This document shows positions 1,849 to 48,576 of a stretch of 64,000 nt of DNA, piece by piece. The position numbers and the translations under genes are program-made. Source of the stretch: Neelides folsomi (Eukaryota; Arthropoda; Collembola; Neelipleona; Neelidae); NCBI GenBank assembly GCA_034687125.1, contig JAQGBZ010000075.1:160485-224484 (forward strand). Direction: 5' to 3'. How positions within the stretch are numbered: position 1 is the first letter of the stretch; the number at the start of each line of letters is the position of its first letter. The notes below the pieces were generated by a model that worked only from the letters and a program-made list of their open reading frames with translations, was not told the origin of the DNA and ran no database searches.

Positions 1849-3009
1849 CTAATAAAAATATTCCATCATTGCTGGCAAGAATTCATTAAGCATTCTTGTG
1901 GATGAAGCTGAAGCTGAGTTACTTGTATATTCTTGGACCAGTTCAGATGTAATTTGGAAAGCTTCAGTCAAGGTGGCGAAGCTCGGTGGGCCGGTGCTTC
2001 CATATCCCGAAATGAGAATGACGAGACGAGTCAGTGAGTCTTTTTCTCCAGGTGTTTCAGCTACCTCTTTAATTGCATCCTTGAACAATTCCTTGAATTT
2101 CTCCATGCTAAAATTCTCGTATGATGAGCATTGGTCAATGTTAACCTTTTCAAATTTTGTAAAAGACATGAAAAGGTTTTCGTGGCCTGGGAATTCAACT
2201 GGGAGATATTGATTTTCAGCGGGAATCATATCAAGGAGTAATGCAATATATGAACCAACAAGTCTATAGCTTGTTAAGTACCCATACATGTCAATTACTT
2301 TGCATGGGGACTTGAAATCATCTACGGGTTTTGGTTTAGGTTTTGACTCAGGATGAGGATGGGGATTATTTGGTTTTGCTTGTCTTGCTGGGTTTGGTTC
2401 TGGTTTTACTTCAGGCTTTGGTTCAGGTTTTGCCTCAGGTTTTGACTCTGGTTTTGGCTCTGGTTTTGCCGCTGGTTTTTCCTCGGGTTTTACTTCTGGT
2501 TTTTTTTCAGGGGCTGGATTTTGTGCCGGTGAGATGACTTGAAGGGCGGGTTGAGGGATAGCTTGTGGAGCGACTGGCGCTGGTGGTGGAGGTGGAGGTG
2601 GTGGTGGTGGCTTAGCTTGTGGAGCGACTGGCGCTGGTGGAGGTGGTGGTGGTGGCTTAGCTTGGGGAGCTGGAACCGGTGCGGGTTTTGCTACAACTGG
2701 TTGTGGAGCTCTTTGGGGAGTAGCTGCAGGAGCCTTTCCTAAATTTAATTAATTAATGAGAAACCATAAATAACTATAAAAAATTAAAGAATTCGTGTAA
2801 GTGTTTGTTATTGTAAATCATTAATTAACCATTAGGGAAGAAGACTTTTTCTTCAACTTGAACCTAAAAATAAATTATTAATTAACAAAAATCACAGGTG
2901 GTTTTATTAATTTTTATTAAACATAGAGAATGGATATTATTTAATAGGGTTAACATACGATGCCGGCGAAGGATGTAGCACAAAGTGCTAAAATAATGAT
3001 TAACTTCAT
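1849..3009 (-). CDS. Secreted proline-rich low-complexity protein, unknown family
   Basis: Three exons, complement(1849..2738, 2830..2863, 2959..3009), give 324 residues with clean GT-AG junctions. Exon 1 is almost exactly a signal peptide: MKLIIILALCATSFAGI (1-17), with a hydrophobic core and a small-residue cleavage site. Residues about 30-85 alternate Ala-Pro-Gln with runs of six to ten prolines. Residues about 85-150 are Lys-Pro-Glu/Ala repeats (types KPEP, KPEA, KPES). The last roughly 165 residues are non-repetitive, acidic and probably helical, with a single Cys in the middle, and end in Phe-Tyr. A TATA box lies 69 bases before the start codon and an AATAAA 19 bases past the stop, so the unit is compact. 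The layout suggests an exported structural, mucus or cuticle-associated protein, but that is inference; the C-terminal domain is not recognised. Confidence 0.85.
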
Positions 3010-22900: not shown

Positions 22901-25900
22901 ATCAAATTCTAATTTTTTGGAAAATGAATTCAAAGAGGTAAAATTAATTTATATTAACCAAATATTGAATATTTTAATAAAGTGAATTTGTTCTATATTT
23001 TTGAATTTCTTATTTGTTGAATTTTTAGTGTCCGAAATTAATGATCGACTTCCTTGTTAATAATTTACCTGGTGATTTGCTTGAGATGGAATGGTATGTT
23101 CCTCTTGATCTTTCTCCATTGGATCCCAAATATCCACCAGAACACCCTGGAATTATTTTAAATATGCTCATGAGGAGTGGAGAAAATAAAAAAGGTGAAA
23201 AGGCCATTTCACGTATCGTCTATTATTTCTTCAATGACATCTTCAACCTTGCAAGAATGTCTCACAAGTATGTTAAAATATCAATTAAAATCCCAATAAT
23301 TTAATCTCATCCGAATAAATTAAAATATTCATTAAAAAGAAATTTAATCCTTATTCTTGCAGTGTTGTTCGAGGGCATTTGGGATCTTTACTCCAATTGT
23401 CTGATATTGAAAAGGACGAAATTGACCAACTTTGGGCATTTGATCAAGGCGATTACGAAAGTGCTTCCTCTTACCTTATGCAAAGAGGGGATTTGGATGA
23501 AAAAGAAGGTCTTCCATGGTTTACACTCATTGCCTTTCTCTCGACTATCCCTGGGCAAGAAGATAGAATGCTGAGTATACTCAGAAGCTCATGCCCACCA
23601 AAATTAGCCAAGTAATATAATAAATTGGGAATAGGAATAAGGATAATATTATTTTTCATAAAATTGATAATTAAAGATGCTTACTTAAGATTGTTTTATT
23701 CTTTAGACTTTACATCAACTTATCTCTAGCAAAGGGTTGTCAAGATTATATCTTTGACGTTGATTTCTACTCAACAATTTGTAAAGATGCTGAACTACTT
23801 AAGCATTTCTTTCTTGGTATTTTATTTTGTTTAAATTAACAATTAATGAATTAAAATGATGTAAGTAATTTTAAGAGAATGTCTACCTATGCATTAATGA
23901 AAACTAGATATGAAGCTTATATAATTAATTATTTGTATACCTAACCATCTTTTTAATTATAATAGAAATTGAGTGCAAAGGACTCCTTCGGAACTTTATT
24001 TTGAAGAATGGAAATAATTTGGGAGAATTGGGAAATTCAGTACTTGAGTCTCATCTGAAGAACTTAATAAGTTTTGATGGGGAAGATCTTCTCTTTTTAT
24101 TTTATATCCTAACGAAAAACCAAAAGGATGGGACTGAACTTGAGCAAAAAATGCTGGTTAAATGGAATTCGCTCCAGCTAACTCCCCAGCAGCAGGAGAT
24201 GTTTTCATCAAAACAGAAGATGTTGGCTCAAATGTTAAAAGATCGAAACGAGCAAAATCCTCTCAAAAATCTTCTCAAAAAGGCTCCAGTTTGCGAGACA
24301 GGTAATAATTGCTTACTCATTTCTTGAATTATTAGAAATAATATAATTTTATTAAATAAAAGAAGTAAAGATTCATCATATTGGTGCTTTTAAAATCTAT
24401 TTTATAGGAAAACAACCAAAAATTTCCAATTTAAAAATTCGTGTGAAGAAAGTAGAATCAACGCCCGTGAATCGTCCAGATCCAATCTTATTGCGATTTA
24501 AAAGTCGTCATCAAACTGAAGTTGCTTTTAGCCCTTTGAGACAGTTTACTGGTTTCAAAACGCGTCAAAATGAAGATCAAGAACTTGGAGAAGCTGATAT
24601 GGAAGAGGACATGGATATTTCACAGTCATCTACCATCACTGGTTTAAAGTTGTACGATGTAGCGAGCATTTTGCAAACTCCAAAAGTTAACAAATTGAAT
24701 GAACCTACCCCTGTCTCAATAACTCAACAACTTTTGTCTGATTCTACTAAAATCCAATCAATTATTAAGGTAATAATCTAATAATTTAAATAATCTAATA
24801 TTTTATATTGATTTCCTTATTTAACTAAATGTAAGTAAATCATAATGAAATGAATTTACTGCGAAATAAAAATTTATTTTTTATAACATATTTTATGAAT
24901 CTTCTTTTTAATTTACAGAGTGATTCAAGAACAAGTACACCACGACACATTCAAAAGATTCATTTTAATTTGATTGACGATGAAGAAGGATTGGATTCGT
25001 CGAGTGATTTGCGGCTTTCAATTCCACCATCACCAAAAGAAACTGAGGCGTCAACCTCATCGGAAAATATTGTCCAAGATGATGAAAGTATGGATATCGT
25101 GAATGAGAAATCTATCCCAGTGGAAAAAGTTCGAGAGATTCCTCTGCCATTTGACGATGAAAGTATCGAAGCTGGTCCTTTCTTCGCTGGTATAAATAAT
25201 GGTAGCAATATGATGCAAACATCAACAATTAACCGAGCGTCTGTCTCTTTATCTGAATCCACTGTCTCCGTCTCAACACCTAAACCCGCTTTTGCAGAAA
25301 TATCCGCCCTTCGCCTTTCTAGCCCTATTGCTGTTAACATTGCGGATTCTGAGGACGAGGTTAAGGATACATCTCTTATTGAAATATCCGATGATTCGGT
25401 TATTATTGAACAATCTCCTCCAATTGTTGAAGAAATTTCATCGAGAAAGACGCTAGATGAATTATTTAAACAAACGACACAAAATGAAAAGATCCAAATT
25501 AGAGAGACGATCCATGAGGTTTTTAAAGACGCTATTGAGGAATTCAAAGAATCCGAAGAAATTGTGGAGGAGCCATTGGTAGTTCCAGTTCCAATTGTTG
25601 AATCGGCTCATATTGAGGAAACGTCCCCATTTGAGCTAACTGAGGAAGATGAGAATGAAGAAAGTATAAATGATGAGTGTTTTGAAAAAATCCCGGCTCA
25701 AAAACAAGTTCCAGCCATCTTTGACACTACTACAGTATTTGAATTGAGTCTCGATGCATCTACTGGAGAATTTAAATCGCTGGATACAACTCATACTTCT
25801 GAACAAATGGAAGAAGCGCTAGAGTCTCAATCTGTTCCGGAAACGAATATTTCAACTTTGAAAAAAGTCAATAAACTAGAGGAATCGCCAATAATTGAAA

Positions 25901-28020
25901 CAATTCCAGAGAAAATTGTTCCAGCGAAAGGGAGAAAACGCAAAACATCGGCGAAAGAATCCCAAGCTAAGATTCTTAAGACCAGCTTTGAAGAAGATCA
26001 AGATGAATTGATTCTTGATGCGTCTCAACGCGACTTGGAGCCGGATGATCTTCCAATCCCAGAAACTCGCTCAAGTAAAAGGAAAAATGAAGTGGTGAAA
26101 GCTGACGAACCTCGGACGAATAGAAGAGGAAAATCGAAAACACCAGTGCCAATGCCTGAACCAATCTCAGTTTCACCAAAGCAGAGAAAAAGATCAACAA
26201 AAACATCTGAGTCGCCAGAAGTGATTCAAAAAGACGAAATTTTTAGAACACGAGTTAGTAAATCTCGAACACCGGAGGTAGAAACTACCCGCCAAACTTT
26301 AAGATCAAAAAAGATGTCCGAGTCACCAGAAGTGATTCAAAAAGACGAAAGTTTTAGAACACGAGTTAGCAAATCCCGAACACCCGATGTGGAAACTGCC
26401 CGCCCAATTTTAAGATCAAGAAAGATGTCCGAGTCACCAGAAGTGATTCAAAAAGAAGAAAGTTTTAGAACAAGAGTTAGTAAATCCCGAACACCCGATG
26501 TGGAAATTGCCCGCCCAACTTTAAGACCGAGGAGAACAAGAAAAAGATCCGAATCATGTGAAGAACCTACTTCTCTTCCACCTTATGTCGAAACAGCAGA
26601 TAATCCTTCAACAGCTCCAACTAAAGATTCTCAGCAAGAATCCCAACAAGAAGAAGAAATTGTCGCCAAAAAGCCGAAGAGGGGAAGACCAAGAAAAGAT
26701 TCTGAAAGTGAACAAGCTGATTCCCGAGGAACTTCAGTTGATCCTGAATTGGGTGACAGCAGGGTGGAAAAACCAAGAAAAAAGGCCAAACAAGAAGAAG
26801 GGAAACTCGCAGATATTTCTGTGTCTTTAAGGACGAGATCAAAAGCTGGTCCAGCGAGCAAAACTAATAAGACCAAACTCGTTGAAGAAATTTTACCAAT
26901 GTTGGCTTCAAGTGTAAAAGAAAAGAAAAAAGCATCATCAACCAAAGGATTTTCTCCATTGGATGAAGAAGGAAGTAGGAATGTATTTAATGATTTTACC
27001 GTGAGCCCATTAAAAGAAACTGACGCTGATGATAATTTATTCGACTCGCAAACCTTAGGCGAACCGAGTCATAGAAGGGTAAAGAAAATGGATTTATCTG
27101 ATTCTTCATTGTCACAAAGTTTAGTTTCAAGCACGACTGGAAAGAGGGGAAGGAAAAGGTCAGAAGAACCTCTTGATTTCGAAATATTTAAAGAAATGGA
27201 TGAATCAACATTAGAACGAAGTTACGCTACTAGGAGTAGAAGGAAAACTCCAGTTCCGTCCACTTCGACCTCAACCTCGCCAACTAAAACCAGAAGTCGA
27301 AAAAAGTCAACTGATTCTCCTGATAGTCAAAAGGGTTCTCCATCCATTGAACCCAAAACCAAAGGAAGAACCCGTAAAAAATCCACCGATTCCATTGGCC
27401 AACCTGCTGAAGAACTAAACGTTTTACGAACGACCAGAAGACGCAAAACTCCAACCCCTGAACCATCCACATCCACGATTGCAACTCGTAAAGGAAAGGC
27501 TAAACAGAATGTTGAAACGGAAGTGGAAGAAGAACCACCAAGGCAACGAAGATTAAGTGGACGAAAGTCTGCTGACCCATTAAGTCCAAAGAAGAAGGAA
27601 AAAAGAACTCGAAGAGCAGCATCTGAAGAACCCCCAATTGAGGAGGATGAAAGTGACAGAGAGGAAAGGGCCATTGCCGAAGTAATGAGGAAAAAAGGGA
27701 CGAAAAGATTAGCTCAATTTAATCTCAATCTCTCTACTGTGATTGAAGTCTCGGGGGCGGATTTATCCCAAATGGCTTCCACTTTGGAAGAAATGACAGA
27801 AAGCCCCGTTACTCCAACAATGCCGGTTTTGTCCCTGGCCCCGACCGCCCCGACCATTAAACTTCGTTCTCGTACAGTTTCCCAACCTGTGGAGGAAAAG
27901 GAACCAGTGGAAGCTACAAGTAAAAGGTCAAAGAAAATCACATCCGATGCTGATGTGTCCATTTCAAGAAGGACAAGGAACAGATCGGGATCTGTGGCCA
28001 GTTCAAGCAGTAAAAATTAA
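19923..28020 (+). CDS. AHCTF1: ELYS / MEL-28 nucleoporin (AT-hook protein)
   Basis: Sixteen exons (19923..20064, 20135..20463, 20527..20812, 20893..21085, 21197..21398, 21494..21764, 21872..21982, 22042..22235, 22320..22635, 22726..22937, 23029..23267, 23363..23611, 23707..23816, 23966..24301, 24408..24769, 24919..28020) close in frame to 2217 residues, near the vertebrate length. The order is N-terminal seven-bladed propeller region (1 to about 500), helical ELYS domain (about 560-1000, with a motif GDYESA matching the NDYESG of human ELYS), then a long disordered tail. The tail has an AT-hook core RGRPRK at 1772-1777, many basic RS/RK patches, three 37-residue repeats, and SILQ (1150-1153) and KIHF (1197-1200) in the place of the vertebrate PP1 docking sites. 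ELYS seeds nuclear pore assembly on chromatin after mitosis. The exon 3 to 4 join uses a weaker donor, CGTAATA. Confidence 0.95.
26200..26532 (+). repeat. Three tandem 111-bp repeats inside the ELYS coding region
   Basis: Copies at 26200-26310, 26311-26421 and 26422-26532 each encode 37 residues built on SESPEVIQKDESFRTRVSKS, then a Arg-Thr-Pro and Leu-Arg-rich stretch. The second and third copies are closest to each other, which suggests recent duplication. Confidence 0.9.
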
Positions 28021-29330: not shown

Positions 29331-32300
29331 TTACGGTAATGATATGTTGAAGTCGGACGGTGGAGACGGAGAATGAGAACCCCTACTCTGGTGATGGGAC
29401 ACTGAGTACGAGGATCCTTGGGCTCTTGGAGCCAAATGGGTCGAGATGGGCGAGGGCGAACGACCAGATCTGTCCATTGTGGTCGACAGGAGGAGATTCG
29501 TACTCGAAGAATGAAGTTGATTTTTGATCCTAAAAGGAAAAGAAATTAAAATTAATGTTGGAGGATTTGAACAGTCGAACCTTTCTATTTCAAACCTTGT
29601 GGTTTCCCTTTCAGCTTTTTCTTGTTCAAGTTGACGGACAAGACGATCGTGTTCGCTTTGTTGTTCAATCGCCTTTAATCGATAAGTCCGAACTTCTTCG
29701 CTTAGACTTTCACTGTTAAAAGATAAAAATTGATCAAGGATTAAACATTTTTGGCAATGCTGAGTGAGTAGGTAAAGGTACATAATACTGAATAATACAT
29801 GTATACATTAGCAAAACACAGAAAAGAAACTGATTATAAATTGTCAAGTGATGTTTAATACTATAAATTAGACAAAGATTGAATGGCACGTTAATTACCA
29901 TCTATTATCCAGAAGATCAATACGAGTCAATAGCTCGGTCCGTTCTCTCGACAGTTCTTTATGTTTCCTTTGAATCTCCATGTCATGTTCTTTGCTCGTT
30001 TTGATTTCATCTTCTAAATGAGATCGACTCTCTCGTTCCATGTTTAATTGCCTTGTGTGCATTTCCAACTGTGCTCGCAAATCGGTATTTTCTGCAAGAA
30101 GCTAAACAATGACAGAATTTATTATTATTTATTTCGCTAACTGGATAAATTACATAGATAACAAAATGCATTATTAAACTAACGAATACATAAATGGATT
30201 GATATCGATGAGAATTAAAATTGATGATAAGTAAATTATGCTTACTTTGTTCTTAGTGCTTTCAATCATCCCGAGATCTTGCCGAAGTTTGTCCATCTTT
30301 CTCTCCATTGTTAGAATGAGATCACGATTAGATTTATTTTCAACTCTTGTCATTTTTTCGTCGTCTCCAATTTTTCCTATTTGGCTCTCTAGATGGATGA
30401 TTCTTTGGCTTGACTTTGCGATTTCTAAATGAAAATAAATTGGCATTGTCAATCAGAAAGGAAAAAAGTTAAATAATGTTATTAATTAAAAAATAATCAT
30501 GTAATGTTTGGAATGATTGTATTAAAACCTTCTTCGTATTTAGTAATTAAACTGCTCATTGAAGCTAATTTGTTTTTCAAGCTGATATTCTCATCAAACG
30601 CTTCCCGAACATCGTGCCTAATCGAAGTCGCTTCTCGTTCTAATGTTGACCGCTGTTCTTCTAACCCAGTTAATGATCGATATTGCTCAAGAATTTTCTC
30701 CATTTCTTCATCCTTAAATCCACCAGACAAAATATTTTAAATAATATTTATATGCATTCCTAATAATACAGGTAGTTCAATACAGTTCTCAATAACTTCT
30801 CAAAATATTGATAAAAACTATATAATTATATACGATATACTAATTAAAAATGATATATTTAAATGGATCCTTAATAGGCAAAGAGATGTCACCTTTTGTC
30901 TAAGCAAATCTTCAGCTTCTCTCACTTCATCAATATACTTTTGGACTTGCTTCTTCAGTTCATCAACTTCTTTTTTCCTCTTGTCAAGCTCAGCAGCAAT
31001 TTCCCTCTTTTCCGACTTCTCCAGGTTTTGATTCGAAGAGATTCTCCTCATATCCCTCAAAGCGGAGTCTCTCTCATTTAAAAGTTTTTCCATATCTTTC
31101 CTCATGTTGTCCAATTGGCGTCTTAATAAGCCAAGTTCTCTTTCATTTTCCCTTGTCGACTCTCCCGAATGCCTAAAAAACAAATAAAATTACCAATACA
31201 CAAATGTAGCATTAAAATAATGATTTAAATTAATAAATAATTAAATGTTTAATGGATAAACTTATGTTTAATAAACTAAAAATAATATCACATTTGAGCA
31301 TTTATAAGAAATAAATATAAATTTTTTTACTCGGTTTCTTACCCAAGATTCAATTGAGAATTTCTGAGTTTGAGTTGCAATCTTGAAATTTCCTCTAATT
31401 GAGATTCCTTTTCCTTATTTAATCTCGCCAGCCTTTCGTCCTTCATGTCAAGTTCCAACCTGCAGGCGTCCAACTCCCTGTCCAACTTCTTCACTGACGA
31501 CTTAATATTTTCATTTTCCCTCACTAGCCCTTCTTCCCTGCTCCGGAGAATTCGAAGTTTCCTATGGAGTTCATAATTCTCCTTCTCCTGCATTTCTTTG
31601 TTCCTCACCGCACCAGCTTCGATCAAATATTGTTCTAGGGAACTTTCGTCTCCGCTCCTCACATTTGCGGTCTCCTTCCCTTTAGTTTGGGTTGGAAATG
31701 AGGATAATTGAATCTCCTGATCGATTTGAACGCCGTACACGAACTTCGACTCCGTTTCCTCAACCTCCTTCCTATGTTTGGATTGATTGGGGCTTGGGAT
31801 TGACACTTGGACGAGCCGACTCCCTCCAGCAACTTCAGGGGGTCGTTGGGCCGTCATCCCTCTTTCACCTTCATCCTCCTCATCATCATCAGAATAAATT
31901 TGTCTATAAACCTCTTTTTCTACTTCGTCCATGCTCAACTCACTTTCGGAATCGGGATTGAAAAGTTCATCAACACGCGTATTGCTCTCCCGCAACATGT
32001 CCATCATGGAAGAACCACGAGCTCTTTTTTCCTTTTTTTCTTTCTCAGTTTCATTTCTTTCCCCATCGTCGGAAGATTCTTGGGCCAATTCAAAAGAAGT
32101 TTTTTTCTTCTCCGCCCTCCGTTCGTTCGATTCTCGGTTGGTGATGGATGGGGATTTCCGGGTGGTTGAATTCCTCCCTCGATCTTCCTCACTTTCACCT
32201 CGCATCTCTTCTATTGAACCCAAGGTCTTATCAGCTCTCGTCTTTTCCTTATGATCGTCATTAACCCCTTTTTTACCATCTGGGAAGGTTTTCCTTCGTT

Positions 32301-35300
32301 TATCTTTCCCATCCGGATCTCGGGATTTCATCCGGGTCTTATCGTCAGGATCGTTGGCTTCACTTCGATTTTTTGGATTTCGGATCGAAGGGTTTCGAGT
32401 TCCAGGTTTTTGCCCGTGTTGGTCAATTGAAGCTTCTGAGTCGTTGGATCTCCGCTGTTTGAAGCTCGACTTCTTCAGTTGGGCTTGAGGAATTTCACTC
32501 TTTCGGGAATTACCTTTAGGTTGCATTTTTCCTTTTCCAACTCCTTTTTGAGTATTTTGACCTTGTGATTCTTCCCCCTCAGTCTCCGAATTTACTCCTG
32601 AACCTTCGTCGTCTTCTTGATGGTCCCTTCCATGTGAATCAGTTGACTTGCCTTGTTTATCTGATTGTGAGAATTTCTTTTTATGTTCGCGGATTAAATG
32701 GGCAGCGGATTCTCGCTCATGCTTTTCAAGATATTTAGTGGGTTTCCGGAGATGGCCATATTTAATTTCCGTGCCTTGTCCATCTCGATCGGTTCGTTCG
32801 CCATTCTCTCCTTGGTCATTTTCGCTGTCACTTTCGTTCAGAGTTTTCTGACTCTTCGATCTTTCTCGTGTTTCTTGCCCACGTTGCTGGTCGTTATTTG
32901 TATTTCTCCTGCTTTGGCTATTTTGACGTTGATTCGGGCGTTGAACTTCGGTTTTCAAATCTTCTTGTCTTTTTTTATTTGTTGTATTTCTGTTTAGAGC
33001 TGTTTGACTGTTTTGTCGAGAGTTGGGTTTTTGAGAAATTTTTGTCTCTGAACTTCCATCTTTGCCTTTGTTGTTTGTATTTCTTCGGTTTTGGCTATTT
33101 TGTCGTTGGTGAGTTTGTTTTGAAATTTCTTCAGTAAAATGCTTCTCTTTATATGTGCTTTTTCGGTATTGACTCCCTTGACGCTGATTGGGCCGCTGAG
33201 GATCCTCGTTGTCAAATTCATCGCCCTTTTTATTTGTATTTCTTCGGTTTTGACTGTTTTGGCTTTGTTGGGAATGATTGGGATCATCATTGTCAAAATC
33301 CTCTCTATCTCTGTTATTCGTATTTCTTCGGTTTTGGCTATTCTCACGTTGGCTGGAATGGGCAACTTCTTGTTCTTCTTCACCTTCCATCTCATTTGGA
33401 TTTCTCCTATTTGTCGACTTTCTTCGATTCTCTTTGGAATTCTTTTCATCGTCTTTCCCGTGAGAGCTATTGGGATTCCCACGTTTAGAATATAATGGAT
33501 CATGATCATGAATATGATGTTCCTCATCGCCATGAGGTCTCGAACTTCTTTTCCCTTTAGTTGATTCACTTCCCCTCAAACTCTCATTTTCATACTTTGA
33601 CCTATTTTCTCCGTGTGACTCATCAAGACTCTCGTCATCATCTTGGCTAAATCTTGAATCATCAGCTCGAAAATTATCGATCGGGTCATGAATCCTATCC
33701 AACGTTTTCATTTCCTCAAAATCGGACATTTCCTCACCGTCAAAACTTCTGTTCCTTGCTGAGTTAATGGAGTTTTTTGGGGTGGAGGTGGGTTGAGCGT
33801 TTTTTCCCTTTTCATTTGGTTCCCTACTGCGATCCGAATTCCCCCCTGTCCAACTCCCATTCAAAGGGTAATCCAATTTGGTGTTTTTTCCACTGTAAGG
33901 TGAGACGCCTTTCCTGTTCCCACTTTCCCCAAAGGAGGATGATTTCCTATTGTCGTTATTTACACCACCGGGTTCATTTCTCTCACTAAGCCGTTTACCT
34001 ATGTGTCCATGTCCTTCTTCTGATTCAAGACTCGGTTTGTATCGACTTCGCTCCTCCACACTTCCTCTCTTGATTGGGCTTTCATGTCCAAATACATCGG
34101 CATGACTTCCCTCGTGTTCTTTAAGAAAAATCCCACTGCTTTTGACCCTTTGTAAGTCAACCGAGTCATCCCCATCGTGATCGTGGTTTTTATGCAAATG
34201 GACGGAGTCAGCAGATTTGATGTGAATTGTCCCAGTGGAATATTCATTCAAATGGGTGCTTTTTCCCCTGTAAACAACATTGTCCTTTGACCTGCTGTTT
34301 GGCAAAGGTTTATGAGGAATCCCTGAAGTTTTATTAATTAAAGAGCTTTTGCTCCTATTGATTAAACCGTCTTTGGGATAATTCATTTCCCCACCACTTT
34401 GGCCACTGCTTCCTTTGCGGGTTTGGTCAGATTGAGAATTCCTTGTAGAATTTCCGATATTTGATCGACGTTCAATTTTCTCGGGGTTGTCATTTAACAT
34501 ATCGAGTTGGAATCCGTCTTTGAGGATTTGCTCCATTGAATTCAACCTTTGCTCCTTTGACCCGGTTCGTTTTGCCCCTTTGTCTGTAGAATCCCTTTTT
34601 TTACCCGAAAATTCGTCAGTGTCTCGAACTGGCCTGTCTTGTTTGAATTGGCTTGAAGATTTCCGGAGTCCTCCTTTGGTCTTTGAAGTCGTTTGAGGAT
34701 CGTTGCAGTCGAGACCGGCAGAGTTGAGAATGTTTTTCAATAGGGCCTTTTCTTTGCAACATTGGGCGAGTCGGGATTCAAGAATTTGGATTTTCTCTTG
34801 ATATCTTAACATGTCTTCGAGTGATATCTCTTCACCATCAAGACCGAGAATAGCCGCCAAGTATTCCCGCTCTCCCGCCGTCGCTTCAACTCCTCTCATA
34901 AACTTATCGTGTTCATCCACTAAAAATTAATTTATTATTCTTCTTATGTTCCTCGAGGAACTTTTATGCATACCTCTATTAAATTGAATATGACTCCAGT
35001 AACAAAATGACAGAACTCATCAAAAACTTTTTTGAATGAAAATTGAGGGAGTTGAATTTAATTTATTTTTCTGCATCTGTATGCTTCTAATTGTAATGAT
35101 TATCTGGGAGGATACTTATAAAAGAGCTAACTTTATGAGGACCTCATAAAGTTATCTATGACTCCCGATTTTTTCATAATTATAAACTAACTCATAATGT
35201 CCTTATAAAGTTAAGGAAAATGCAGAAAATCCATACATTTCCATGTGATTTGACTCGTTTTAATTCTTCTTACTTATAAAAGGCTCATAGTTAACTTTAT

Positions 35301-38300
35301 GATTCTTTTATAAGTTAGAAAGTATTTGTATTAAAAGCATTGGAAGAATATTAATATAAAACTTACATAGAGATGTTTTGAGCTTTCCCTCAAGTCCGAT
35401 ATTTCTTCGTTGGAGCATTTCGAGTTGAAGCTCAAGCATTTTAATCGTTTGCTCAGCATCATCTCCGAAATTTCCATTCTTTGGAATTGGACCATTTCTC
35501 TCAAAATAAAACTTAAGCTTTTCAATTTCTTGTTCGCGAGATTCAACTTTCCCATTCATGCATCCAACTAATTCTAATAAATCCTTTTGAGCCAACTTCA
35601 ACTCCCGGTTTTGTAAATGCAATGCTTCAATCCTCGAGTCGGCAATCTGATCAAACGAGCAAATCAAATTATGAATTTAACATGAATCCCGATTTTAATG
35701 TGATACATCATGATGTATGACGTGGCGCTAAAGTAATTTATTTTAGCTTACTCTCAAATAATCTGTCGTTGCTCTCTTATCGCACTCTTTTCCAAACTTG
35801 GCAAAGTTTCTTATACTGACAGCCTGTGGAGTCACGGTAGGGACCGGAATGCATTGGTCAATTTCCATTCGTTGCTTCTGTCCGCCCATCTTCTTCACTC
35901 CGTCTATTTAATGTATTTCAATTAAGAGATAAGTAAAATAAAGAATATCAAGATGGATAAAAGTAAAATATTTAAGTTCACCCTTGACACAAATAACGGC
36001 TTCTAAATTCCGAGCTTGTAGTTCTGCAATTTTTCTTGTTTTCTCCAATATATCAGAATTGAATTTCTCAATGCGACTGACAAACTCTTTGATTAGAAGC
36101 TTCAGGTCGCCGTTCTCCGTTTCCAAATCACGAAGGCGAGATTTGGACTCTGAAATTCAATTATAAAATATCGCAATATTTTCTCAGATCTCATAGATAC
36201 GGCATTTCTTGTCGTGCGTGTTGAACAGCGATCAAATGATCATGTTTAACTTTTGCGCTTATAACATTTTTATCAGTTTAATATTAAACATGATACGCAA
36301 ATAAATCCATTACAGTATTACAATGATTCATTTTATAAATATTATAAATGAAAAAATTATAAAATCAAATACAAAAATTAGCCATTATACAATTTTAAAG
36401 TAAAATAAAATCACAAGTATTTTTATTGCAATGCATAAACACGATACGATAAATCGAGATGTTCGATAATGTTAGAATTTTTCTAAGTATTTGCACAACA
36501 TTATCGATCGATCATTTGGCATACTTTAAGACTATTCCTCATTATAAAATGAAATGCCCGTCTGAGCAAACAAAAATACCCTCAAAAGAAAAAGGAGAGT
36601 GGGGGTTATTCAAAAGGACCAATTTAAAGAGTAAATACATAGTTGTGATGTCGTGAGCTCACCATGTACTTTGTCATGAGCGTCTTCTTGGGTCCTGAGG
36701 ACGGCAAGTCTCAGCAGGGAATTTTCCTTGGCCAACCGTTGGTTTTCATTCCGGAAAGGGAGGACTCCCTCCTCGAGTTCCTCCGCCACCTCAAATGAGA
36801 AAGAAATTGTGGGCTTAATTGGAGAAAACTCCCTCCACGTGTGAGTTCTTCTCTCATCCTTTGGAGAGCTTAAGAAAGCCAAGTGCGAAAGTTGAATGGC
36901 GAAAGGAGCCGTCTAATTTATCACCTTTCTTTCACACTCCGCCCTTCCGTCAGTCACATTGGGATATAATGGATTTTAAACAAGAGCTGTAACAGTAACG
37001 GACTGGAACCCCTTCAATTCCCTCTTCCCATTATTCCATTCATTCCCAGAATTCCCTTCCTTACACAAAACGCAAGGTGGAAAGAACAAACTCCTCATTA
37101 TAACTACTTTACTAAAAATATGAAGTTTAATAAGAGTTCATACACATTTCTTCGGTTGTATGACAGTTGAAAAATGCTGAAATTGATTCAAAGTGCGAGT
37201 TGACTTGACCTATAAAATAACTTTTCTATTTTTCTACTTTCTAATCAATAATTTTGTTCCCAGTATTAATACTTGTTTCAGACAGCAATTGGAGAATAAA
37301 CTCCACTAAAATAATATATAACATAATACAAAACATCCGTTTTAATAAATTATTTTTTGCTTAATTTATACAACATGTATGTTTAAATTATCAATACTAT
37401 CACACTTTTTCTCTGATCAATCAATGAAAAATAGATGATGTATCAGTATGAGATATGATAGTTTTTATAATTGGTGCATCGTTAATTGGTTATTAAAACG
37501 GTTGCATAATGTTTTGGTTAGAAAATGTATGTCAACGCCAACGTCATGCTACCTAATATGAAGTTAAGAGGTTAAAGTTAAATGGGAGCTTATAAGGAGT
37601 GTTTTTGTCAATTGAGTATAGTGAAGAGAAGGAGGAGCACACAAATTGTGGATCATTTCGGTGAAGTTTAATAACAGTTTTAGAAGGTTAATATTAGGGA
37701 TAATTGGAGGATATGTCAATTGATGGATCAATTTCATGTTTACTGAACCAAGACATGTCAATCGGTGATAACTCGCCAAAGGATGACAAAAGTTTACTCT
37801 TTTATGTTCTTCGTAATCTTTATAAGAGGAAAGAATTTAGTAGAATAAAATTACTATTAGTTATATTGACAATCTCAAGTTAAAATTAACAATAGAAGTA
37901 AAAACTAATAAAACAGCGAGGTGTTAAAAATTTAATTGCCTAAACATGAGTATTTTTGAAACATTGACGTTTGTTTTCATAAAGCATATTGAATAAAATT
38001 GAGTTTTCTACATACAATCATAAAATTGTCGAAAAAAACACAATGGCAAAAGAAAAATCATATGGTTTACCAACAAATGGGATATGAGATATCTGACAGA
38101 AAGAGAAAAACATCAAACATAGGAGTCGGAGATTATTGATTTAATGAATCAATTTCATTTTTGAATGCACCTGTCTTTTGTTTCAATTAGATGAAATGAA
38201 ACATTTTTATCACCATTTAAGCTGTGAAATCACACCAATAACTGTTTAAAAAATAGATGCAAGGATAATATAATTATAAAATTATAAAAAAATTAATTTG

Positions 38301-38542
38301 GCACGTATGAATTTATAACTTTAGAATGGTCTATTTTATGTGGATTAAAAATATTTGACACTTACATTTTTAAAATAGGAAAATTCCTTGTCTCTCAATT
38401 TGAGGGAGCTTTTCGCTTGTCGAACTTCATTGACGAGTCTTTCAACGAGTGGAAGTGACTCAATTCCAAAGGCCTCTTTAAAATCGAGATCGTCAAGAAG
38501 TCGACGAACCTTTGCATATCGATTCTCAACTAACGGCTTCAT
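29331..38542 (-). CDS. CEP135: Centriolar protein CEP135 (Bld10), with large insertion
   Basis: Twelve exons, complement(29331..29529, 29596..29712, 29899..30101, 30246..30424, 30529..30712, 30893..31172, 31343..34919, 35367..35646, 35752..35903, 35982..36149, 36663..36789, 38366..38542), give 1880 residues against about 1140 in man. Residues 1-59 (ENRYAKVRRLLDDLDF..., then ESLPLVERLV) match the N-terminal microtubule-binding region of CEP135. KQRMEIDQCIPVP, ADSRIEAL and DKFMRGVEA match later blocks, and the C-terminal coiled coil (RRQLDNMRKDME..., QKYIDEVREAE) and Ser/Pro tail (SGRSPSPIS) also agree. CEP135 builds the centriole cartwheel and links it to the wall. The 3.6-kb exon carries about 1000 residues of Ser/Arg/Asn/Asp-rich disordered sequence between two coiled coils (residues about 370-1385). 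The last donor choice at 29596 could instead be 29581 (five residues more). Confidence 0.93.
32880..33352 (-). repeat. Six imperfect repeats in CEP135 insertion
   Basis: The minus strand encodes about six degenerate copies of 25-30 residues, each opening with RQNSQNRRNTNN or a close form followed by acidic/Gln-rich spacer. This accounts for about 160 residues of the insertion. Confidence 0.8.
35128..35154. repeat. 27-bp near-perfect palindrome in CEP135 intron
   Basis: Arms TAACTTTATGAGG and CCTCATAAAGTTA flank a single A. The same intron holds further partial copies of the ACTTTATGA / TCATAAAGT word near 35192-35214 and 35292-35303. Confidence 0.85.
36463..36507. repeat. 11-bp inverted repeat in CEP135 first intron
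   Basis: TCGATAATGTT at 36463-36473 is mirrored as AACATTATCGA at 36497-36507. Short enough to be chance in AT-rich DNA. Confidence 0.5.
36790..38365 (-). other. First intron of CEP135
   Basis: A 1.58-kb intron, GC-richer at 36790-37080 and AT-rich beyond. No coding signal. Confidence 0.6.
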
Positions 38543-39321: not shown

Positions 39322-40296
39322 TTACCAAAAATCATCGAAATCATCCTCGTATTTCTTTTCCGGAATTCCCACATCAATGGCAATATTCAATTCTTCATCA
39401 TCTTTAACTTCTTCAACTTCATCGTCATCAAATAGTTTATCCAAATCGTCATCAGTCAAGGCTTTGTTTTCATCTTTGAGAGGAGCTTCAGGCTTATTTT
39501 CAACTTTGATAGGAGATTTAAGTTCGTCGGGATTTTTGTTCTCAATAATGGCATGAGTTTTGGGTTCGTCGGGAATGTCGTTTTCATCTTCGACAGGAGT
39601 TTTTGATTCCTCATTGTCCTCATCTTCATCCCATTCGCTCCTCACTTTATTTTTGCTATTAAACTCCACGCGTTTATCGTAGATGAAATTGGCATCTCCG
39701 GGTTTGATGATGTTTTTGAGAAAACTCTTATCCATGATTTCTTTCTTCTTTTGGAGATCTTTTATTGAAACCTTATTCAAATCTTCTTCTGGATCAATTT
39801 CAAATTCCGCATTTACTTTCAAAACGGCTTCCTCTAAATACGAATTATCATATTTTGTAAAAAAAATAAGTTTTTTTAACTTCATTTTTTATATTTTAAA
39901 ATGATTGAAAATCTTTCTATTACCTTTTATTTCTCCTTTTTGCAATTCTTGAATAATTCTTAAAAGCTTCTCTATAAGAGCATTCGAAACTTTTTCCAAA
40001 TAAACTCCATGCCGTAGTTTGATTTCATTCGCCACAAGCTCAACATTCGACTTTGCAGTAAACTTCCTCAGTGGCATTACTCTCTTCCTTCTCTCGTGCC
40101 CGTCTCCGTCTCCATCTCCAGAGTTGTAAAAAAGGACGAGAGTTGGAGGATCAGCGATTACACCAATACTCACAGGATTGCAACTGACTTTGTAGGCATA
40201 AGCTCTTGAAATATTCCCAAAGAAACTTTGAGGTTGTTCCAAATTGATGATTTCATCGTGTTTACGAAAAATATTTGAATATTCAAAAGGATCCAT
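39322..40296 (-). CDS. CEP19: Centrosomal/ciliary protein CEP19
   Basis: Two exons, complement(39322..39833, 39924..40296), give 294 residues. The core matches CEP19: PTLVLFYNS, then KRVMPLRKF, LEKVSNALIEKLLR, the signature DPEEDLNKV (IDPEEDLNKL in man), KKKEIMD and DANFIYDKRVEF. CEP19 sits at the mother centriole and ciliary base and with FGFR1OP (FOP) and RABL2 starts entry of intraflagellar transport trains. Compared with the roughly 165-residue vertebrate protein there is an N-terminal extension of about 50 residues, and a long acidic tail of about 110 residues built of Asp/Glu/Lys/Pro, ending in DDFDDFW, where the short vertebrate form ends in an acidic Trp-containing tail. It lies directly downstream of CEP135 coordinates but is transcribed separately in the same direction, 0.8 kb away. 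Confidence 0.95.
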
Positions 40297-40873
40297 CTTT
40301 TTTATTGCAACAAATTAAATCCACTATCTATTTGTTTAATTAATTTTGATCATGCTCAAAAATTAAACTCCTATTCCCTTTTCTCAAGACTTTTCAATTC
40401 AAGAGTGAGTATAGATGTAACCGTTTATTTGTGTACATAGCCGTTCTTAGCAACGATGATATATGAATGCACAGTTGGTTTGAGAGTCTCAAACTCGAGA
40501 CTTTTATTATCGACCGAAACATGATGATTGGAACCGGGAGCCATGATAAATTAAATAGTACAATTGCAAACCTCTATGATACATGGGTCAATTGTTTATT
40601 AAATTACATCCAATATGAAGGAATTTGTTCTTTCATGAGATCATGAGCATTAACGAAATGAATTCTGTATTGTATTGTGGTGAAAAAAATTAAAGACTTC
40701 TACTGAAGGAATGATATGATTAGAATTTAGAATATTAAATAATTAAAACTTGACGTGTAAGAATTCTATAAAATTAGCGTGATATGTTAAATAATAAAAT
40801 AATATATTTTGGAATTATTACTTTATTACAAAGCAGTAATTCGTTAGTTCAAAATCGTCGTAATGCAAGAAGT
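40297..40873. other. Intergenic, CEP19 promoter side
   Basis: About 580 bases with the CEP19 promoter and the RpL24 poly(A) signal. No gene seen. Confidence 0.5.
40822..40827 (-). promoter_or_regulatory. Poly(A) signal AATAAA of RpL24
   Basis: AATAAA on the minus strand, 47 bases past the RpL24 stop codon. Confidence 0.6.
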
Positions 40874-45145: not shown

Positions 45146-47959
<2,814 letters not shown>

Positions 47960-48576
47960 GTTCACTTCAAGAGAAAGTGTGAAAAACTAGAGATTGAATG
48001 AATCAACTAGGCAAGTTAGTCGACAGAAGAACACTCTGGAGTTCCTTCGGGGAGGCTCCAAACCACCCTTTCGCTCACCAACCTTCCTCGCTTTTTCACA
48101 TACCCCGCCATAGCCCAGACAGTGGGATGTTAGGAAGGATTTTCTAGGTCATTTCCCTCGCCGTCCTACCCTTCCCCCTTTCCTCCCTTAGGACCCAAGG
48201 AGAAAAAGAGTGGCATGTTGCGGGAGTCATTCTACCGAGACAGGCGACCGTCGACCCGCGTTCATTTTGGCTTCCCCCCTATACTCCCCTCCTATGGGCA
48301 TAGGAAGTGGGGAATGCATGGGAGGTGATAGGACCAAGTCTGCGTCAGACATATGAGTCATGTGAGAGGGAGGACAGGTCAAGCCTACCACGCAACTACC
48401 GGCATCCGGCATCCAAAACCACGTTGTCCCAATCTGCCCCGACCTTCATTTTCCTCTTTTTTCCTCATTCTTCAATGATCCTCATTGTCTTCGGTAATTA
48501 ACAAATTAATTATTATTTTTAAATCGTTAATCTTTTACGCCTATTCTTCGTCATACTCTTGGTTCGAATTTTAACA
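47960..48576. promoter_or_regulatory. Divergent promoter region eIF4A / coiled-coil gene
   Basis: These 617 bases separate the two start codons and are GC-richer than the surroundings, with no TATA box. Open frames here have no coding character. Confidence 0.5.

Follow-up and report, generated by a model that had tools for sequence, protein, structure and literature searches.

The question raised by this locus is whether a core centriole spacer, CEP135, is interrupted in one animal by about 1000 disordered residues encoded in a single exon, and what such a protein would be. The locus lies on contig JAQGBZ010000075.1 of the springtail Neelides folsomi (assembly GCA_034687125.1); the whole stretch of DNA analysed, called the window, comprises 64,000 nucleotides (nt; positions 160,485 to 224,484 of the forward strand), and all coordinates refer to the window (Table 1). 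The reading preferred here, which is given about an even chance of being right, is that the gene is a genuine CEP135 whose two halves have come to be linked by a disordered tether, rich in basophilic-kinase sites, that grew within a long internal exon, exon 6. The unusual aspect is the place of the insert, in a core centriole spacer.

The gene was reconstructed as a spliced model, in which 11 of 11 introns were GT-AG and all phases joined into one 1880-residue frame. Exon 6 is bordered by attaatttttag directly before and gtaagaaa directly after; the exon coordinates and minus strand given by the first-pass annotation were exact, and the spliced model returned its protein length. Residues 69-178 matched the CEP135 chain of PDB 7bji (expectation value, E, 2e-15) and residues 6-135 a chain in PDB 9qzc (E 7e-10). 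Human CEP135 (1140 residues) served as a yardstick, in a sequence that was compared with PDB 5fcn over residues 82-144 and was identical to it there; all human comparisons below were made with this sequence. Residues 1-298 aligned with human 1-292 (N block; 30% identity, E 1e-29) and residues 1440-1846 with human 725-1137 (C block; 25% identity, E 6e-21, reaching the Ser/Pro-rich tail), and the two blocks stood in the same order as in the human protein. The C block scored 84.7 bits to CEP135 versus 40.4 to a TSGA10 fragment (a fragment without its N-terminus; the comparison concerns the C block only). Judged by sequence likeness, the gene is CEP135, as had been proposed, with the conserved N-terminal region present. 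When the N block was searched against the 75 Mb genome, six exon-wise matches were obtained, all inside this gene, which is taken from these matches to be the only CEP135/Bld10 gene found in the animal. Partners of CEP135 are also present in the genome: a SAS-6 head domain was found, followed by coiled-coil-like open frames with a by-eye sum of roughly 660 residues (not a spliced model), an ordinary size, together with a Tcp10_C domain of the Sas-4 type.

Other searches added little to the identification. With Pfam, the N and C blocks gave no CEP135 family and four weak matches each (ATG16, KASH_CCD and others), all of which stayed under their cut-offs and are most plausibly generic coiled coil, and exon 6 gave zero matches. 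No PDB match was obtained with the C block; five TRPM8 chains matched by the N block (E 0.02-0.06) were taken as coiled-coil noise, and no relative was found when prokaryote genome contigs were scanned for CEP135 fragments. Searches for the ALMS motif and the ELYS domain gave no match in the genome, and none in the controls either, and were therefore uninformative.

The insert contained 0 in-frame stops, compared with 24 and 112 in the other two frames of the minus strand, and 300 dinucleotide-preserving shuffles of it contained a mean of 42.4 (minimum 22); the frame is open through the whole of exon 6, in agreement with the earlier description of 3.6 kb. Its G+C (GC) content was about 0.43, taken from three codon positions (0.40-0.44 in 1-kb steps), versus 0.28 in the pooled introns, and its codon usage correlated with that of the rest of the gene at 0.62 in frame versus 0.31-0.50 in the five other frames. 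The low-complexity part makes up 1013 of the 1880 residues (54%), in agreement with the statement that it exceeds half of the protein. It had been described as rich in Ser, Arg, Asn, Asp and His; the composition (Ser 12.5, Glu 10.3, Lys 9.8, Arg 9.4, Asn 8.3, Asp 8.1, Gly 7.7 and His 3.3%) agrees for the first four, His being modest, and Glu and Lys, which had been left out, belong in the description because of their share. The insert has 3.4% Leu, no Cys, 38% charged residues and a net charge of about zero.

Coiled-coil character was assessed by heptad contrast, which reached P < 0.05 in no 56-residue window from 393 to 1400 and came back from about residue 1401 (P 0.05 and 0.03 at the resuming coiled coil); the measure is insensitive, since three of six 56-residue windows in residues 1-336 also lack the contrast. 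AlphaFold2 was run on exon 6 alone as a single sequence without alignment, which itself lowers confidence, so that a low predicted local distance difference test (pLDDT) is partly expected; 1049 of 1191 residues had a pLDDT below 50, with the insert mostly at 25-45. The nearly continuous coiled-coil rod that is typical of the studied CEP135 members, though not a defining trait of the family, was thus not found over about 1010 residues, by heptad contrast and pLDDT. Composition, heptad contrast and AlphaFold2 agree with the earlier claim that the insert is in frame and, by prediction, disordered. A PDB search with the insert gave no match at E 0.1. Two short predicted helices within it (Table 1) are possible binding elements in the model.

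Whether the insert simply lengthens an otherwise ordinary rod was judged from the human protein. The human middle (293-724) has 432 residues, largely coiled coil, whereas the corresponding part here (299-1439) has 1141, mostly disordered, of which only residues 299-379 and 1393-1439, about 128 in all, look structured. With 432 human residues set against about 128 structured ones plus the insert, the insert has not simply been added to a rod that is otherwise whole; on the sequences compared, either the rod would have lost length in addition to being broken, or the greater length of the human middle has a separate cause. Of the proposed large insertion in the middle of the rod, the in-frame disordered insert therefore stands and the simple insertion does not. 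Likewise, the claim that conserved CEP135 blocks lie on both sides held for the whole protein and not within exon 6, where neither flank could be placed on human CEP135 (299-379, P 0.29; 1393-1440, P 0.19). A left-flank motif (D-x-F-x-(K/R)-G-x-E...E-R-x-Y) was considered as the counterpart of the human linker near 460; the left flank aligned best at another place, without significance (P 0.29), and the idea that the insert sits exactly at an ancestral linker was dropped for this reason.

A degenerate array of six copies lies within the insert; its self-comparison score was above the maximum of 10 shuffles, and it was not reported by Tandem Repeats Finder. Repeat pairs were then chosen on DNA regardless of frame (at least 32 of 45 positions identical; maximum 31 in 8 codon shuffles), and seven of the seven best were in frame, six of them involving the array and one (517 vs 642) lying outside it. 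Over these seven pairs, 19, 12 and 37 differences fell at codon positions 1, 2 and 3, while the pair outside the array had no such bias (4, 5, 4). Over 13 core codons, variable columns by codon position numbered 3, 1 and 8 in the four best copies (Fisher P 0.005) and 7, 5 and 11 in all six (Fisher P 0.02), P values that are indicative because the copies share ancestry and were picked for likeness. By the Nei-Gojobori method, the proportions of synonymous (pS) and nonsynonymous (pN) differences among the four best copies were 0.64 and 0.17 (pN/pS 0.26). On a plain reading of the sequence, the array would be old, translated and constrained, since variation is concentrated at third positions and synonymous differences are near 0.64. 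The region had been held to be under selection or very recent: the codon positions of the array carry a signature of purifying selection, and a very recent origin does not fit the synonymous differences.

Short motifs were counted against shuffles. R-x-x-S/T sites, which suit basophilic kinases, occurred 34 times in the insert versus 17.0 in shuffles, 21 versus 12.7 times outside the array (P 0.01), and without excess in the N and C blocks (9 versus 9.4). SQ/TQ sites were enriched over the whole insert (18 versus 10.9, P 0.016) and not outside the array (8 versus 6.2, P 0.26), and no enrichment in the insert was found for [ST]P, CK2, KEN and D-box-like motifs. SxIP motifs are EB1-type sites; two SxIP-like motifs were present versus 0.4 expected (P 0.06, not significant), and one of them, SGIP, is a possible EB1-type site.

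Table 1. Positions of the features in the window, with strand and basis.
Feature	Position	Strand	Residues and remarks
CEP135 gene	29331..38542	-	12 coding exons, 1880 aa; GT-AG junctions in phase, PDB and human likeness
Exon 6 of the CEP135 gene	31343..34919	-	3577 nt, frame open end to end
Left-flank helix	34720..34821	-	335-368; AlphaFold2 pLDDT about 47-50
Predicted disordered insert	31648..34686	-	380-1392, 1013 aa; composition, heptad contrast, AlphaFold2
SxIP-like motif SGIP	34315..34326	-	500-503
Degenerate repeat array	32854..33357	-	823-990; six copies of about 28 aa, core QRQNSQ-NRRNTNN
SxIP-like motif SEIP	32488..32499	-	1109-1112
Two short predicted helices in the insert	31897..32004	-	1274-1287 and 1298-1309; AlphaFold2 pLDDT about 40-50
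Long helix, coiled coil resumes	31348..31647	-	1393-1492; pLDDT 64-89 per 10-residue block except the last
CEP19-like gene	39322-40314	-	Pfam CEP19, E 1e-11 and 1e-21 over two open frames
Open low-complexity frame	24835-28020	+	1061 residues; no Pfam match at E 0.01
Young tandem repeat within that frame	26190-26526		3 copies of 111 base pairs (bp), 90% matches
GC peak	47001-48000		GC 0.51; no Rfam match
Open frame, Pro-rich and PKPE-repeat start	1849-2748	-	299 residues; no Pfam match at E 0.01

Taken together, a flexible, phosphorylatable tether is favoured because a disordered chain joins the two halves and carries the R-x-x-S/T surplus. Exon 6 would be fully retained in the mRNA, and it may have lengthened, in part through tandem repeats, until it encoded a disordered polyampholyte of about 1010 residues. 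This stretch would separate the N-terminal half (binding microtubules and, in flies, Ana1) from the C-terminal coiled coil. The insert would then be a flexible tether replacing part of a rigid rod. Through its R-x-x-S/T excess it would offer basophilic kinases a platform, and its span or its partner binding could be switched by phosphorylation. The contour length of the insert is 365 nm, compared with an end-to-end distance near 23 nm for 1013 residues estimated with a random-coil scaling law, and because this span is short by comparison, a spacing fixed by the two ends could remain unaffected. A bolder version, offered as speculation that we consider doubtful, is that CEP135 is here no longer a rigid spacer: its rod would be shortened and split, and between its halves would run a disordered chain, constrained and phosphorylated at many sites, which allows the pinhead end and the C-terminal coil to take up positions independently, with SAS-6 and the wall alone setting the spoke-to-wall distance and kinases tuning it.

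The rival to be taken most seriously, although we consider it the less probable account, is that the insert is neutral bloat, a translated and tolerated disordered linker whose length has no particular role, long internal exons being prone to gain repeats and the CEP135 halves working independently. Long internal exons do tend to gain disorder and repeats (PMC12457776), and a neighbouring gene in the window also has a 1061-residue open frame of low hydrophobicity with a young repeat of 3 x 111 bp. How common such frames are was surveyed in 20 stretches of 10 kb (200 kb) of the genome, in which the longest open frame had 463 codons (stretch ends cut frames), compared with two frames above 1000 codons in the window, a rarity that speaks against bloat; other parts of the genome, at cuticle-domain loci (39 Chitin_bind_4 matches in all), do have open frames of 1063, 598 and 562 codons, which count against that rarity. 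Neither the codon-position bias within the array nor the R-x-x-S/T surplus outside it is accounted for by a linker free of function, but the signature of constraint is confined to the array and most of the insert lies outside. Several further observations weigh against the tether: the selection signature covers about 168 of the 1013 insert residues, the four best copies were picked for likeness and the repeat pairs are not independent, pN/pS rises to 0.70 when all six copies are used (in an ungapped register that is out of step for two), the kinase motifs are short and common, AlphaFold2 leaves the left flank also near pLDDT 50 on a single sequence, and the long CEP135 form would rest on the genomic sequence of one arthropod. 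Splice signals belong with these points. A splice-site model was trained on the 11 introns of the gene itself; by its scores, 224 in-frame GT-AG pairs of at least 300 nt in exon 6 equalled or exceeded the weakest real intron, and frame-shifting pairs reached 15.8 versus a real-intron median of 11.7.

Such pairs are what an exitron would use, that is, a stop-free in-frame part of exon 6 removed in some or most transcripts, with an ordinary short CEP135 and a regulated long form. Among known exitrons, roughly half have a length divisible by three, and disordered regions as well as modification sites are affected when they are spliced (PMC4484396). The best in-frame pair (34146-31879, 2268 nt, sum 10.9) outscored the four weakest of the 11 real introns, yet no in-frame pair of at least 300 nt attained the real-intron median; the acceptor-like YAGs of exon 6 have at most 9 of 12 upstream pyrimidines, whereas 4 of 11 real acceptors have at least 10, and the exon-like GC of the insert and the apparent constraint of the array as protein also speak for retention. 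An exitron is therefore regarded as improbable. That unrelated coding sequence was joined into the exon during assembly is very improbable indeed: frame and splice phases are unbroken across 12 exons, a search of the assembly for a second copy of the insert gave none, and Tandem Repeats Finder lists no array in exon 6 that could have misled the assembler. A mobile-element insertion would be expected to have repeated copies, whereas the one match of the insert in the 75 Mb genome was the insert itself (match counts are lower bounds).

Other features of the window are recorded here. The CEP19-like gene, also on the minus strand, is separated by about 780 bp from the CEP135 start and lies upstream of it, so that two centrosome genes stand side by side. 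The 1061-residue open frame is of low complexity and poor in hydrophobic residues, the GC peak lies in an otherwise AT-rich window and carries overlapping plus-strand open frames, and a search of the window with Rfam gave 0 matches at gathering thresholds.

In one published description, SAS-6 and Bld10p are molecular spacers, and centriole structure is dictated by their lengths (PMC5082667). A natural CEP135 with 1013 disordered residues breaking up its rod offers a ready-made test of whether the protein is a rigid ruler or a tether; if centrioles of this animal have ordinary diameter and nine-fold symmetry, CEP135 would be a tether with two docking ends and not a ruler. Human CEP135, for which coiled coil is predicted over about 900 of 1140 residues (PMC7667884), and the chain in PDB 7bji resemble the present protein in the collinear N-terminal 298 residues and C-terminal 1440-1846. 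Drosophila Cep135/Bld10, likewise an arthropod member, has 1059 residues (PMC13422256) and is 821 residues shorter, compared by length; its N-half (1-498) binds Ana1 and its C-half does not (PMC13422256). In flies, Plk4 controls where Asl lies radially by phosphorylating the N-terminal part of Cep135, and the authors of that work suggest that the full-length protein stays inhibited until it has been phosphorylated (PMC5007297). The conserved N-terminal region of CEP135/Bld10 binds microtubules in fly and human, and the Bld10 N-terminus lies near the triplet microtubule in Chlamydomonas and Paramecium; in Chlamydomonas, the N-terminal 44% of Bld10p is almost dispensable, and truncations result in shorter spokes and frequent 8-triplet centrioles (PMC4113102). 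Chlamydomonas Bld10p (170 kDa) is, like the present protein, a long member of the family, but it is said to form coiled coil along nearly the whole molecule, whereas the rod here is broken by a disordered block. No title or abstract opening among the papers listed for CEP135 with disorder or low complexity describes such an insert. Long internal exons in which disorder is encoded and tandem repeats bring about expansion (Homma et al. 2025, PMC12457776) share with exon 6 the disorder and the repeat array, although the 3577 nt here far exceed the ranges of up to 840 nt named for them.

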